Positions 55,350-60,483 of a stretch of 64,000 nt of DNA are shown here, in pieces. The DNA lies in the NCBI RefSeq assembly GCF_000244915.1, contig NZ_CM001442.1:4154001-4218000 (forward strand). The letters are read 5' to 3'. Both the position numbers and the translations under genes were made by a program. Position 1 is the first letter of the stretch. Each line of letters starts with the position of its first letter. Under the pieces are notes generated by a model, which saw nothing but the letters and a program-made list of their open reading frames with translations, had not been told where the DNA came from and ran no database searches. The DNA is from Bradyrhizobium sp. WSM471 (GTDB taxonomy: Bacteria; Pseudomonadota; Alphaproteobacteria; Rhizobiales; Xanthobacteraceae).

Positions 55350-55916
55350 TCAGTCCTTGGCGCGCTCGGAGTAGGAGCCGTCTTCGGTCATCACGACGAT
55401 TCGGGTGCCGACGGCGATGTGCGGCGGCACCGTGGTGCGAACGCCGTTCGAGAGCACAGCGGGCTTGTAGGACGAGGAGGCGGTCTGGCCCTTGGTCACG
55501 GGCTCGGTCTCGACCACTTCCAGCGTCACGCGCTGCGGCAGGGCGATCGATACCGGATTGGAGCCGTGCAGCGACAGCTTGACCGTCATGCTCTCCTGGA
55601 GATAGGCCGCCGCATCGCCGATCACGTCCTTGGACACCTGGACCTGGTCATAGGTCTCCGGGTTCATGAAGTGATAGCCGTCACCATCTTCATACAGGAA
55701 GGTGTAGTTGCGCTCTTCGATCGTGGCTTTCTCGACCTGGTCGGTGGTCTTGTAGCGCTCGGAGATCTTTACCCCGTCCGAGATTCGGCGCATTTCGATC
55801 TGGCTGACCGGGGTGCCCTTGCCGGGATGGATGTTCTCGGCGGTCACGACGACATATAGCTTGCCGTCTTGCTCGATCACGTTGCCCTTGCGAATAGAAC
55901 TGGCGATGACTCTCAA
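55350..55916 (-). CDS. efp: Elongation factor P
   Basis: 188 aa with three beta-barrel domains. N-terminal KOW-like domain with the modified-lysine loop HPGKGTP, Lys33 (equivalent to Lys34 of E. coli). The OB domains have [25 protein letters not shown] and [20 protein letters not shown]. It relieves ribosome stalling at polyproline. Divergent from epmA and epmB, which attach and prepare beta-lysine, so lysylation of Lys33 is expected. Start at ATG 55916. Confidence 0.96.
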
Positions 55917-56078
55917 AGCTTTATTTCCTGCTTGCTTGGCCCGGCTCGGGCCAGGACGTGGTCAAATTGATGGGGGACCTGGGGCCCCAAATCAGACCGC
56001 GGCACCCGTTTCGGGCCGCAACATACTGGTTTTGCCGTTGGATGCCAGCATTTTGCTGGCCTGCGGGACGGCCGGTTA

Positions 56079-57143
56079 ATGGCTGGGGACAAGCCGATGT
56101 CGCCGTTCTGGTCCCCCTCGCGGCATCTCGACCGCCGGCCCTTCCTGCAGGCCAGGGGAGCCATCACCGGGGCTCTACGGGGATTTTTCGCCGAGCAGGG
56201 CTTCGTCGAGGTCGAAACCTCCGTTCTCCAGGTCTCCCCCGGCAATGAGACCCACCTGCACGCCCCCCGGACGGAGATCATGCGACCCGACGGCAGCCGT
56301 GTGAGTCGATATTTGCGGACGTCGCCGGAATTCGCCTGCAAGAAGCTGTTGGCGGCCGGGGAGACCCGGATTTTCGAGTTCGCCCGGGTGTTCCGTGACC
56401 GCGAGCGCGGCGACCTGCATTTGCCCGAATTCACCATGCTGGAATGGTACCGGGCAGGCGCCCCCTATGACGCCATCATGGCCGACTGCGTCGTCCTCAT
56501 CGCCCGCGCGGCCCAGGCGACCGGTATCGGCGCCTTCGCCTTCCGCGGCAGGACCGCCGATCCCTTCGCCGAGCCTGAGCTTGTGACGGTAGCCGGCGCC
56601 TTCGAGCAGTTGGCGGGGATTGATCTGCTTGCGACCATTTCCGGGGGCGAGGGCGACCGCGCCGCGCTCGCCCGGGCGGCTGCCGGCAAGGTCCGCGTGG
56701 CCGAGGACGACACCTGGTCCGACATCTTCAGCAAGGTTCTGGTCGAGCATGTCGAGCCGCATCTGGGGCAGGGGCGTTTGACCATTCTGTTCGAATACCC
56801 ATCTCCAGAGGCGGCACTGGCGCGCGTGAAGGCGGGCGATCCCCGCGTTGCCGAGCGGTTCGAGGTCTATGCCTGCGGTGTCGAACTCGCCAACGGCTTT
56901 GGCGAACTGACCGACGCCGAGGAGCAGCGCAAGCGCTTCACGCAATCCATGGCGGAGAAGCAGCGCCGCTACGGCGAAGCCTATCCGCTGGACGAGGACT
57001 TTCTGGCCGCGGTCGCGGCGATGCCGGAGGCGAGCGGGGTCGCGCTCGGCTTCGACCGGCTGGTAATGCTGGCGAGCGGCGCATCGCGAATTGATCAGGT
57101 AGTCTGGACGCCGCCCGCAAATGAAACGTTGAGCGAGACATGA
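56079..57143 (+). CDS. epmA: EF-P beta-lysyltransferase
   Basis: 354 aa class II lysyl-tRNA-synthetase-like catalytic core without the anticodon domain, as expected for EpmA/GenX/PoxA. Motif 2 region FARVFRDRERGDLHLPEFTMLEWYR, TILFEYPSPEAALARV, and motif 3 GVALGFDRLVML. It transfers (R)-beta-lysine to EF-P. Shares a divergent gap of about 160 bp with efp and overlaps epmB by 4 bp, forming an efp modification locus. No epmC hydroxylase is visible here. Confidence 0.95.
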   Translation: MAGDKPMSPFWSPSRHLDRRPFLQARGAITGALRGFFAEQGFVEVETSVLQVSPGNETHLHAPRTEIMRPDGSRVSRYLRTSPEFACKKLLAAGETRIFEFARVFRDRERGDLHLPEFTMLEWYRAGAPYDAIMADCVVLIARAAQATGIGAFAFRGRTADPFAEPELVTVAGAFEQLAGIDLLATISGGEGDRAALARAAAGKVRVAEDDTWSDIFSKVLVEHVEPHLGQGRLTILFEYPSPEAALARVKAGDPRVAERFEVYACGVELANGFGELTDAEEQRKRFTQSMAEKQRRYGEAYPLDEDFLAAVAAMPEASGVALGFDRLVMLASGASRIDQVVWTPPANETLSET

Positions 57144-58234
57144 CGAAGAGCAATCTTGCACGGACATTGCGCGAGCCGGCCGAACTTGTGGCCGAACAGC
57201 TGGCGCCTGCCACAGCGCTGCCGGCGCTCGATCGCGTTGCGGCACGCTATGCGGTTGCGATCACGCCGGCGCTGGTCGATCTGATCGACAGGTCCGATCC
57301 CGACGATCCCATCGCGCGGCAATTCGTTCCGACTGCCGCGGAGCTGGAGATGCAGCCGGGCGAGAACGCAGATCCGATCGGCGATCATCCACACTCGCCG
57401 GTTCCCGGGATCGTGCATCGCTATCCCGACCGCGTGCTGTTCAAGCTCGTCCACGTCTGCGCGGTCTATTGCCGCTTCTGCTTCCGCCGCGAGATGGTCG
57501 GCCCCGGCAAGGAGAACGCGCTCTCGGATGGCGCCTATCGCGCGGCGATTGACTACATCCGCTCGCACGGTGATATCTGGGAGGTGATCCTGACCGGGGG
57601 CGATCCCCTGATGCTGTCGCCGCGGCGGATGAGCGAGATCATGGCCGATCTGGCCGGCATCGATCACGTGAAGATCATTCGCCTTCACACTCGCGTGCCG
57701 GTGGCCGAGCCCGCGCGCATCAGCGACGAGATGGTCGCTGCCCTGAAGGCCGAAGGCGCCACCACCTGGGTAGCGCTGCATGCCAACCATGCGCGCGAAC
57801 TGACGAGGCCGGCGCGTGCCGCCTGCGCGCGGCTGGTCGATGCCGGGATTCCCATGGTGAGCCAGTCCGTGCTTTTGCGCGGCGTCAATGACAACGCGAC
57901 CGCCCTGTCGGATTTGATGAGAGCTTTCGTCGAATGCCGGATCAAGCCCTATTATCTGCATCACGGCGATCTCGCGCCCGGCACGGCGCATCTGCGAACG
58001 ACACTCGCCGAGGGGCAGAATTTGATGCGGCAGCTGCGCGGACGGGTGTCGGGACTGTGTCAGCCCGACTACGTCATCGACATTCCCGGCGGCGCCGGCA
58101 AGTCGCCGGTGGGGCCGAATTACGTGTTGCCGATGCAAAATACCGCACCCGATGCGCGTGATGCAGATCAAGAAACGCGCTATCGTATCGTCGATTATTG
58201 TGGCGACGTTCACCTCTATCCGCCCGAGACCTGA
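57140..58234 (+). CDS. epmB: EF-P (R)-beta-lysine aminomutase
   Basis: 364 aa radical SAM, KamA-like. The 4Fe-4S motif CAVYCRFCFRR has Cys107, Cys111 and Cys114 (CxxxCxxC). PLP-binding DIPGGAGKSPVGP lies near the C-terminus. Shorter than lysine 2,3-aminomutase, as in EpmB. It converts (S)-alpha-lysine to (R)-beta-lysine for EpmA. Translationally coupled to epmA (ATGA overlap). No other candidate pathway genes surround it. Confidence 0.93.
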   Translation: MTKSNLARTLREPAELVAEQLAPATALPALDRVAARYAVAITPALVDLIDRSDPDDPIARQFVPTAAELEMQPGENADPIGDHPHSPVPGIVHRYPDRVLFKLVHVCAVYCRFCFRREMVGPGKENALSDGAYRAAIDYIRSHGDIWEVILTGGDPLMLSPRRMSEIMADLAGIDHVKIIRLHTRVPVAEPARISDEMVAALKAEGATTWVALHANHARELTRPARAACARLVDAGIPMVSQSVLLRGVNDNATALSDLMRAFVECRIKPYYLHHGDLAPGTAHLRTTLAEGQNLMRQLRGRVSGLCQPDYVIDIPGGAGKSPVGPNYVLPMQNTAPDARDADQETRYRIVDYCGDVHLYPPET

Positions 58235-58583: not shown

Positions 58584-59669
58584 TCAGGCGGAGCGCTCGT
58601 GCAGCCCTGCGCGCTTGGTGTTGCGCCGGATCTCGACCGCGTCAGCGAGCTGCTTGAGCACGGTTGCCGTGGTCGCCCAGTCGATGCATCCGTCCGTGAT
58701 GCTCTGGCCATAGATGAGCGGCTTTCCCGTCACCACGTCCTGGCGTCCGGCGACGAGATTGCTCTCGACCATCACCCCCATGATGCGGTTCTCGCCACCG
58801 GAAATCTGCCCGGCGATGTCGGCCGTCACGAGCGGCTGGTTTTCCGGCTTCTTGCACGAATTGGCGTGGCTCGCATCGACCATCACGAGCGGTGCGACGC
58901 TCGCTTTCGCCAGATCGTTGCAGGCCGCTGCGACGCTTGCCGCATCGTAATTCGGAGTGCTGCCGCCGCGCAGGATGATGTGACAATCCTCGTTGCCCGC
59001 GGTTGAAGCGATCGCCGAGCGGCCGAGCTTGGTCACCGCCATGAAATGATGCGGATTCGAGGCCGACTTCACCGCGTCCGCCGCGATGCGCACGTTGCCG
59101 TCGGTACCGTTCTTGAACCCGACCGGGCAGGACAGCCCCGAGGCCAGCTCGCGATGAATCTGGCTTTCGGTCGTGCGCGCGCCGATCGCAGCCCAGGACA
59201 CGAGGTCCGCAATGTATTGCGGCGTCGTCATGTCGAGAAATTCGGTGCCGGCGGGCAGGCCGAGATTATTCACCGCCGAGAGCACGTTGCGCGCCAGCCG
59301 CAGGCCCTTGTTGATGTCGAAGCTGCCGTCCAGATCAGGATCGTTGATCAGGCCCTTCCAGCCGACCGTGGTGCGCGGCTTCTCGAAATAGACCCGCATC
59401 ACGATTTCGAGTTGGTCGTCAAGCTCTTCGCGCAAGCTCGCGAGGCGCTCGGCGTAGTCGAGCGCAGCCTTGGGATCATGCACCGAGCAGGGGCCGACGA
59501 CGACCAGAAGCCGGTCGTCCTGGCCATTGAGGATCGCATGGATGGCGTTGCGTGCGGCCATCACCACGCGCGTCGCGGTGAGCGTGCGCGGGACTTCCCG
59601 CATCACCTCTTCGGGCGTGCTCAGCTCTTTCAGTTCGCGGATACGAAGATCGTCGGTCGTGCTCAGCAC
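58584..59669 (-). CDS. aroG: DAHP synthase, class I (AroF/G/H type)
   Basis: 361 aa. VVVGPCSVHDPKAALDYAERL, RVYFEKPRTTVGWKGLINDP with the PEP-binding Lys-Pro-Arg-Thr, and GFKNGTDG near residue 195 are class I signatures, with DASHANSCKKPENQPLV as a metal/phosphate site. It condenses PEP and erythrose 4-phosphate, the first step of aromatic amino acid synthesis. An attenuator-like leader (59704-59890) precedes it. The symbol among aroF, aroG and aroH is a convention here; feedback specificity cannot be told. Confidence 0.93.
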   Translation of the reverse strand: MLSTTDDLRIRELKELSTPEEVMREVPRTLTATRVVMAARNAIHAILNGQDDRLLVVVGPCSVHDPKAALDYAERLASLREELDDQLEIVMRVYFEKPRTTVGWKGLINDPDLDGSFDINKGLRLARNVLSAVNNLGLPAGTEFLDMTTPQYIADLVSWAAIGARTTESQIHRELASGLSCPVGFKNGTDGNVRIAADAVKSASNPHHFMAVTKLGRSAIASTAGNEDCHIILRGGSTPNYDAASVAAACNDLAKASVAPLVMVDASHANSCKKPENQPLVTADIAGQISGGENRIMGVMVESNLVAGRQDVVTGKPLIYGQSITDGCIDWATTATVLKQLADAVEIRRNTKRAGLHERSA

Positions 59670-59703
59670 GGCGGGCTCCTGTCATGTTGAGACCCTGCCG
59701 GCC

Positions 59704-59732
59704 AATAAAAAAGCCGCCAGGTCTGGCGGCTT
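59704..59732 (-). terminator. Attenuator terminator ahead of the DAHP synthase gene
   Basis: In the minus-strand RNA GCCGCCAG (59730-59723) pairs with CUGGCGGC (59720-59713), flanked by AA/UU, and is followed by UUUUUUAUU (59712-59704). It lies 34 bp before the aroG start codon and after the leader ORF stop. It has the form of an intrinsic terminator inside a leader. Confidence 0.9.
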
Positions 59733-59755
59733 GTTCGGACGTTTGCTGCAATGTT

Positions 59756-59836
59756 TCAGATTGAGCGCGATCCTCCTGCCGCCAGCGAGCTGTCGTAGCT
59801 AAAGTACCAAAAATAGCTGGTGACCAGGGTGATCAT
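59756..59836 (-). CDS. Aromatic-rich leader peptide of the DAHP synthase attenuator
   Basis: A 26-residue ORF, ATG 59836 to TGA 59758-59756. Codons 7-14 read SYFWYFSY: six aromatic residues in seven positions (8-14), covering Tyr, Phe and Trp. Codons 17-20 contain CUGGCGGC (59785-59778), the same 8 bases as the terminator's 3' arm, so it can pair with the terminator's 5' arm as antiterminator. A ribosome halted on the aromatic codons would leave it free and allow aroG transcription. No Shine-Dalgarno is seen; transcription may begin at or next to the AUG. Confidence 0.85.
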   Translation of the reverse strand: MITLVTSYFWYFSYDSSLAAGGSRSI

Positions 59837-59843
59837 GGCCAGT

Positions 59844-59890
59844 CATATAGCGCGCGATCGGCGGCTTGTCACCCCCCAATGGAGGGTGAC
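59844..59890 (-). promoter_or_regulatory. Promoter and inverted repeat ahead of the aromatic leader
   Basis: On the minus strand GTGACA (59872-59867) and TATATG (59849-59844) are spaced by exactly 17 bp, matching a sigma-70-like -35/-10 pair. Initiation about 7 nt further would fall at the leader's AUG. GTCACCC (59868-59874) and GGGTGAC (59884-59890) form an inverted repeat overlapping the -35 box, a possible repressor site. Confidence 0.65.
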
Positions 59891-59904: not shown

Positions 59905-60483
59905 TCAACTGTTGCTTTTGCGTGCCGCCAGCGCCATGCCGATCAGCGTGGCGCCGCCGAACAGCAGGTTGATGCCGACGAGGATGCCGATCGCCCATTC
60001 CGCCGAGCTCGGCAATCCCGTGATCACCATGAACGAGATCGCGATGTCGACGAGGCCCGAGATCAGGAGCCACGACCAGCGGCCGCCCGGCTCGCGGCGA
60101 TGCTCCAGCGCGTACATGATGGTGGCGACGCCCTCGGCGAGGAAATAGGCGCCGAGCACGATGGTCAGCGTCAGCACGGCCTGCATCGGCCGGGCCAGCA
60201 GCAGCATGCCTGCGAGCACGGCGAGCGCGGCCGAGATCAGCGACCACCAGAAGCCCGGCGTGCTGCGCGCCCAATACGTCGCGATCAATCCGCCGATGCC
60301 GCTGATCAGGAACATCCAGCCGAGGAAGATCGCAATCGCAAGGCTTGCGAGCGGCGGCAGGATCAGCGCGGCAACGCCGAGCACCGCAAGCAGGATCCCT
60401 TCGAACAGGAAGGCCTTCCAATGTGCCTTGACCGTCCGGCTCATGGCGGATTGCAGCCGGGAAAGATCCTCAGGCGATGTCAT
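59905..60483 (-). CDS. HdeD-family (DUF308) membrane protein
   Basis: 192 aa with six membrane segments in three repeated hairpins (FEGILLAVLGVAALILPPLASLAIA, FLISGIGGLIATYWARS, LISAALAVLAGMLLLARP, TIVLGAYFLAEGVATIMYALEHR), the HdeD/DUF308 pattern. In enteric bacteria HdeD supports acid resistance; in other groups its role is unknown. It starts at 60483 and lies about 75 bp after the PrsW-like stop on the same strand. Confidence 0.88.
   Translation of the reverse strand: MTSPEDLSRLQSAMSRTVKAHWKAFLFEGILLAVLGVAALILPPLASLAIAIFLGWMFLISGIGGLIATYWARSTPGFWWSLISAALAVLAGMLLLARPMQAVLTLTIVLGAYFLAEGVATIMYALEHRREPGGRWSWLLISGLVDIAISFMVITGLPSSAEWAIGILVGINLLFGGATLIGMALAARKSNS

Follow-up and report, generated by a model that had tools for sequence, protein, structure and literature searches.

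A putative ribosome-mediated attenuator with an aromatic leader peptide upstream of type I DAHP synthase genes in Bradyrhizobium and other proteobacteria

Aromatic synthesis is entered through DAHP synthase, a step that enterics handle with three isozymes and two repressors. An attenuator of the Corynebacterium glutamicum aroR-aroF genes was reportedly described by Neshat et al. in 2014. There, according to the accessible part of the source, an aromatic leader peptide precedes the DAHP synthase operon and stalling raises transcription (PMC11802643). The other close relative among known systems is the leaderless trpL of S. meliloti, an alphaproteobacterial leader whose transcript begins at the leader AUG and which chooses between a terminator and an antiterminator, as far as the available portions of two papers tell (PMC7298713, PMC10117765).

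The element considered here lies in a 64,000 nt stretch of the genome of Bradyrhizobium sp. WSM471 (the window), upstream of a type I DAHP synthase gene. An earlier note had proposed a classical attenuator at this place with all its parts, and every part was found on the minus strand where the note had put it. Comparison among relatives, at the level of sequence, likewise supports its reading of ribosome-mediated attenuation. Very probably the element is a transcription attenuator of the trp/phe type that ties expression of type I DAHP synthase to charged aromatic tRNAs. The support comes from conservation of the anatomy, from the covarying and mutually exclusive helices 2:3 and 3:4, from the spacing and from co-occurrence with the gene.

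Parts of the locus

Coordinates are collected in Table 1. The promoter, the 26-codon open reading frame with its aromatic residues at codons 8-14 and the terminator with a U tail are as first proposed, and the leader-internal repeat of the terminator 3' arm is CUGGCGGC, in leader codons 18-20. The terminator, AGCCGCCA-gacc-UGGCGGCU followed by the U run (59707-59731), has a folding energy of -14.5 kcal/mol, and none of 200 shuffles was equally stable. The DAHP synthase gene does follow, but its GTG start is 37 nt from the U run; the 34 bp given earlier are counted from 59704. Assignment of the enzyme is by TIGR00034 (532.1 bits, cut-off 173.2), with a match to PF00793 as well.

Table 1. Features of the DAHP synthase leader region, in window coordinates
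Feature	Position	Strand	Remarks
-35 element GTGACA	59867..59872	-	17 bp upstream of the -10 element
-10 element TATATG	59844..59849	-	7 nt upstream of the leader ATG at 59836
Leader open reading frame MITLVTSYFWYFSYDSSLAAGGSRSI, 26 codons plus stop	59756..59836	-	
Segment 1 (GAUC, CCUG, UC, CCAGC)	59816..59834	-	able to pair with segment 2
Putative sensor codons 8-14, Y8 F9 W10 Y11 F12 S13 Y14	59795..59815	-	
Segment 2, GCUGGCGGC and bases up to GGAUC	59769..59786	-	common to helices 1:2 and 2:3
Segment 3, terminator 5' arm AGCCGCCA	59724..59731	-	
Segment 4, terminator 3' arm UGGCGGCU and U run	59707..59719	-	
Type I DAHP synthase, 361 aa, GTG start at 59669	58584..59669	-	presumed controlled gene; TIGR00034, PF00793
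HdeD-like gene	59905..60483	-	upstream neighbour

Where would transcription begin? Among 113 genus-type regions the -35 element is GTGACA or ATGACA in 112, and the spacer is 17 in 110. The -10 element ends 6-9 nt from the leader ATG in 95 of the 113 genus-type leaders and in all 69 other alphaproteobacterial ones (164/182 in total); in the 18 remaining genus-type leaders two ATGs stand in frame 6 nt from each other, and the script had picked the second. Shine-Dalgarno-like motifs precede 9/222 leaders, versus 203/222 DAHP synthase genes. Because of this promoter spacing and the lack of a Shine-Dalgarno motif, the leader frame is probably leaderless, with transcription starting at or beside its AUG. 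For B. japonicum, 192 transcription starts mapped exactly onto a start codon are reported in the part of the paper available (PMC4842269). The -10-to-ATG spacing seen in alphaproteobacterial leaders was not found in the betaproteobacterial ones.

Some further observations concern the surroundings. Directly past the U run, GCCGGCAGG (59690-59705) is strongly conserved within the genus. In several relatives a CTCCT/AGGAG pairing could mask the Shine-Dalgarno sequence of DAHP synthase, a possible second control step. At 55350-58234 of the window, genes for elongation factor P, a class II synthetase and a radical SAM protein adjoin one another; we take the latter two to be EpmA/GenX-like and EpmB/KamA-like.

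Occurrence among relatives

Upstream regions were scanned by a script for a frame of 8-60 codons with at least four Phe, Trp or Tyr per 8 codons and a nearby downstream terminator (a stem of at least 6 pairs with a T run). The alphaproteobacterial set comprises 174 regions: 110 from the genus (of 139 genomes with a match, those whose upstream region was read), to which the family search added 16, the order search 36 and the class search 12 outside the genus. Leader and terminator were called in 171/174. The aromatic leader, whose conservation had been proposed as a check, is present in 172/174; the exceptions are L165, where the contig breaks off, and L166, whose leader has just two aromatics, and the script missed one further locus (L085) where a G-U pair interrupts its reading of the terminator stem and the leader is present.

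Could such a combination arise by chance? A background of 492 regions upstream of frames of at least 200 aa was drawn from 400 kb of the own genome plus the window, spurious frames kept. One region passed, and this is the same DAHP synthase read from an inner Met; leader plus terminator was found in 0/491 other upstream regions of Bradyrhizobium sp. WSM471, and chance occurrence was rejected on this result. With the threshold relaxed to at least three aromatics per 8 codons, one further region passes. A second full copy in the own genome was also rejected, as there is one match (3.6e-25) and the next (E 0.04) covers the model's terminator end only.

In the named genomes, where the best 80 of at least 591 matched stretches were scanned, the script found the element at 49/80 loci, and at 50/80 once a Rhodanobacter locus was added by eye. 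The positives in this best-80 set are all 15 Alphaproteobacteria (Bradyrhizobium, Mesorhizobium, Devosia, Methylosinus, Rhizobium tropici and Leisingera), 26 betaproteobacteria (Burkholderiales by label in 24 cases), all 7 Lysobacterales (Xanthomonas, Stenotrophomonas, Dyella and relatives), [Pseudomonas] boreopolis and a single proteobacterial genome that is unplaced. The element is absent from 29 readable loci of the same set, among them 7/7 Enterobacterales, the sole Vibrionales, 3/3 Rhodocyclales and Undibacterium; one other locus is incomplete. In enterics, short aromatic-containing frames without a terminator are present and were left out of the counts. A phylum-wide search gave 2/30 positive loci, these being the 30 best by enzyme score and no random draw. 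Judged from these regions, the element occurs in many alphaproteobacteria and betaproteobacteria and in some gammaproteobacteria.

In a quick tree covering 125 DAHP synthases, in which many inner forks are open, presence of the element requires 9 changes. Every member of the clade that holds the alphaproteobacterial and Xanthomonadales enzymes (support 98) has the element, save for the contig-end and two-aromatic loci. Presence thus largely tracks the enzyme tree, a pattern that fits joint inheritance of leader and gene. The gene itself is patchy, with a type I match in 23/198 genomes of the family and a score over cut-off in 48/347 of the order. Type II DAHP synthase scores over cut-off in 38/41 relatives, and Bradyrhizobium sp. 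WSM471 encodes one too. An aromatic leader was seen in none of 30 regions upstream of type II genes, that of the own genome included (40 genomes matched), and the same leader before this enzyme was rejected on these 30 regions.

A first covariance model, R1, gave 48 strong matches in 48 type I genomes, a result that is partly circular because R1 contains many sequences among its own matches. A second, R2, was built to escape this circularity from 23 non-alphaproteobacterial leaders (betaproteobacteria, Xanthomonadales and one unplaced genome). R2 recovers the window element end to end (E=5.6e-15, 64 kb searched) and matches 24/24 of the alphaproteobacterial DAHP synthase loci supplied (E at most 3.5e-5). 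Searched against 400 kb of own-genome background and two type II loci, it gave no match of E 1 or lower.

A related leader is also found before a different gene. When 20 further order-level model matches were inspected, six proved to be leaders with terminators (e.g. MIKTAATFVYFYYVTSIPAAA) before tyrosyl-tRNA synthetase-like genes (L389-L393, L398). The six carrier genomes belong to one other family of the order, and none is among the type I matches. At L389, the one locus of the six tested by HMM, the downstream gene matches TIGR00234 with 350.7 bits; R2 matches both tyrS loci supplied, L389 and L392. The other 14 order-level matches were set aside as unlike aromatic leaders by eye, and several resemble ends of coding genes with ordinary terminators.

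Alternative helices and the position of the ribosome

Folded free and complete, the leader has segments 1 and 2 in one extended hairpin and segments 3 and 4 in the terminator (-42.8 kcal/mol, z -2.45, 2/200 shuffles as good). The CCAGC/GCUGG pairing pointed out in the earlier note exists, as part of a longer 1:2 helix in this minimum free energy fold (GAUC 3-6/65-68, CCUG 9-12/59-62, UC 14-15, CCAGC 17-21/51-55). Without segment 4 the leader folds 2:3, with or without its first 24 nt, and since z against shuffles is -0.47 and -0.28, this fold is no more stable than the shuffles. The long 1:2 helix is not formed by the first 58 nt of the window leader folded alone.

Compensatory changes, the other check proposed, are found in both competing helices, as 2:3 and 3:4 stay paired through changes on both sides. 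Over 77 aligned sequences, 95.1% of cells are paired in the 8-pair terminator and 83.5% in the 8-pair antiterminator core, and both sides have changed in 36 and 18 cells, respectively. These values were equalled by 0/500 shuffles each and by no slide of the alignment; the pair-type count of the antiterminator core was matched by 92/500 shuffles.

As flanking helices slip in the alignment, a swap test was used, in which within-species segment duplexes were compared with partners from other species in 5000 swaps. With 78 representatives, z was -5.95 for 1:2, -7.84 for 2:3 and -13.2 for 3:4, with 0/5000 swaps as good; the controls gave -0.14 for 1:3 and -2.72 for 1:4 (15/5000 swaps as good). The 1:4 signal perhaps reflects the repetition of segment 2 by segment 4. 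In two smaller sets kinship is reduced, not removed. With 44 sequences, z was -3.13 (1:2), -6.14 (2:3) and -10.5 (3:4), against -1.41 (1:3), -2.80 (1:4) and +0.72 (2:4); with the 28 most divergent, it was -2.72, -4.78 and -8.03, against -0.65, -2.22 and +1.49 for the same controls. Helices 2:3 and 3:4 are firm on this comparative evidence. The protector helix 1:2 is swap-positive and belongs to the whole-leader fold, yet it is minor before segment 4 is made; it is likely but not firm, as its z nears that of control 1:4 when the sequences are more divergent, and for the window it is the least secure of the parts.

How far would a ribosome reach? Measured from the start of the last aromatic codon, the core of segment 2 lies a median of 13 nt away, and at minimum 10 (75 of the 78 representatives). 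In a folding model with a ribosome footprint, the aromatic run stops where the ribosome would start covering segment 2. In this model, without segment 4, the antiterminator probability is 0.72-0.87 with the A site 0-5 codons past the first aromatic codon, 0.10 at 9 codons past it, at most 0.04 at 10-17, and it partly rebounds near the stop codon (0.17-0.29 at 18-20). The frequency of aromatic codons drops in step with this probability (Spearman 0.89, over 17 non-independent registers). Upstream of the run the probability is 0.71-0.82, about equal to that within it, so the model accounts for the end of the run and not for its beginning.

For the complete window leader the same kind of folding gives the terminator 0.97 when the RNA is free, and the antiterminator 0.74, 0.17 and 0.00 with codons 8, 11 and 14, respectively, in the A site. 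Averaged over 75 representatives, a stall lifts 2:3 in the complete RNA merely from 0.02 to 0.13; such averages are weak because equilibrium folding of the finished RNA prefers the terminator, and attenuation is kinetic. Without segment 4, the window leader favours 2:3 over 1:2 at equilibrium (0.92 vs 0.02) when no ribosome is present, and 2:3 stands at 0.94 with a ribosome at the stop codon. Since 2:3 is thus favoured before segment 4 exists, termination must rest on kinetics or on competition by segment 4.

The following working may be proposed. Transcription would begin at or beside the AUG of the leader frame. A ribosome waiting on the early aromatic codons would cover segment 1 while its leading edge does not quite reach segment 2, and the free segment 2 would pair with 3 and let RNA polymerase continue into DAHP synthase. 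When aromatics are plentiful, the ribosome would pass over segment 2, or free segment 1 to hold it; with segment 2 occupied, 3:4 would pair and transcription would stop before the gene. Translation of the leader, stalling, termination and readthrough in the cell, as well as the role of 1:2 and the choice of amino acids that count, are what we infer from the parts.

Sensing codons, other readings and known systems

A broader proposal can be made, tentatively and with a little more doubt than belief: that one element, inherited with type I DAHP synthase in alphaproteobacteria, betaproteobacteria and Xanthomonadales, works as an OR gate that responds when any one of the aromatic amino acids runs short, with the leading edge of the ribosome serving as a ruler, such that every codon of the mixed run would halt it short of segment 2, and that this element was carried to tyrS in one alphaproteobacterial family. 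Phe, Trp and Tyr are all present in 113/113 genus-type leaders. Trp stands at codon 10 in all 93 of the genus leaders that have 26 codons, and Tyr and Phe replace each other at codon 8 (Y 67, F 12) and at codon 9 (F 74, Y 19), as if any aromatic suffices. These two facts stand against the possible but not favoured reading that the attenuator works and only some of its codons sense, the first Tyr/Phe or Phe alone, with no three-input sensor. That reading draws on the window model, where the response is strong at codon 8, weak at codon 11 and nil at codon 14, and on the leaders that lack Trp (it is present in 62/69 other alphaproteobacterial and 16/27 betaproteobacterial leaders); moreover, C. 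glutamicum aroR reportedly responds to Phe and not to Tyr, in the part of the source at hand (PMC11802643).

Codon usage within the run is also skewed. Phe is written TTT in 208/221 codons of 111 genus leaders, versus 503/3070 in 210 background frames of the own genome, and TTTAGC is retained in most of the Oxalobacteraceae leaders aligned, too. There may be a need here for a slow codon or for an unpaired stretch.

Does the terminated leader RNA or its peptide additionally act in trans, like rnTrpL and peTrpL of S. meliloti? We consider this unlikely. The layout as a small leaderless mRNA does resemble that reported for rnTrpL in the portion of the paper available (PMC7298713), and in the 93 genus leaders the peptide is nearly invariant from codon 10, codons 17 and 20 excepted. 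Against a role of the peptide, third positions are almost as fixed as the others from codon 12, except at codons 20 and 23, which points to constraint on the RNA, and the GGCGG core lies in a different reading frame in 9 of the 72 representatives (of 78) where it could be placed, the RNA segment being kept. What is conserved seems to be the RNA and not the tail of the peptide.

A metabolite-binding riboswitch or a protein-binding antiterminator, with the open reading frame incidental, would equally put a structured leader before a biosynthetic gene; this is very improbable, as conservation of the aromatic run extends over more than one class, the end of the run stays at a ribosome-like distance from segment 2, and Rfam gave no family at gathering score in seven related loci and none above threshold in the window stretch searched. 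That the hairpin is a mere terminator of the HdeD-like gene, which lies on the same strand about 170 nt upstream, is hardly credible and was rejected: a promoter-like sequence intervenes, and in regions reaching about 700 nt upstream the HdeD-like gene was seen at 103/110 genus loci, at L111-L114 and at 4 named Bradyrhizobium loci, and at none of L115-L162 or 76 other named loci, while the element persists in all of L115-L162 and in 46 of those 76.

The attenuator reading can now be set beside known systems. The C. glutamicum aroR leader has Phe-Tyr-Phe residues, with Trp unmentioned in the part of the account available, and comes from another phylum; the comparison is by description only (PMC11802643). 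The trpL leader of S. meliloti and the leader peptides of Agrobacterium and Bradyrhizobium carry Trp only and control trpE(G), and the trpL-type peptides printed in the available portions, MSTAVAPARLWWRTS among them, are unlike the DAHP synthase leader (PMC7298713, PMC10117765). Putative attenuators before aroAI-alpha-Y > tyrA of Vibrio parahaemolyticus and V. vulnificus, likewise a proteobacterial DAHP synthase, appear in Table 7 of a further paper as entries originating, so far as its accessible part indicates, from a web list and naming no leader peptide (PMC1173090). Enterovibrio (L254), the lone vibrio relative in the best-80 named set, has no such leader. In Acholeplasma, uORFC-13-1 is likewise an upstream frame, holding one or more Phe codons, that together with a terminator precedes aroF (DAHP synthase); as described in the part available, it has a ribosome binding site and is limited to Acholeplasma and environmental sequences, and here again the comparison is by description (PMC8632094). 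Phe_leader (RF01859) is a leader with a terminator as well, and its match to the window terminator is weak, at 23.6 bits (E=1.2) and below the gathering score of 55.

Among the matches listed, no description of the DAHP synthase leader was found in the open literature, the vibrio table entry being nearest in the part of that paper available (PMC1173090); an earlier mention is possible in Vitreschak 2004 or Neshat 2014. That this leader is in its working a classical ribosome-mediated attenuator is strongly supported by the comparative data. If this is true, attenuation of DAHP synthase would be common where the type I enzyme occurs, i.e. in rhizobia, Mesorhizobium, Devosia, Burkholderiales and Xanthomonadales. 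The alignment at hand suits a new RNA family, and the leader offers a clean test case for the integration of three amino acid signals by one leader. Should the OR gate hold, one leader would do the job for which enterics use their three isozymes and two repressors.
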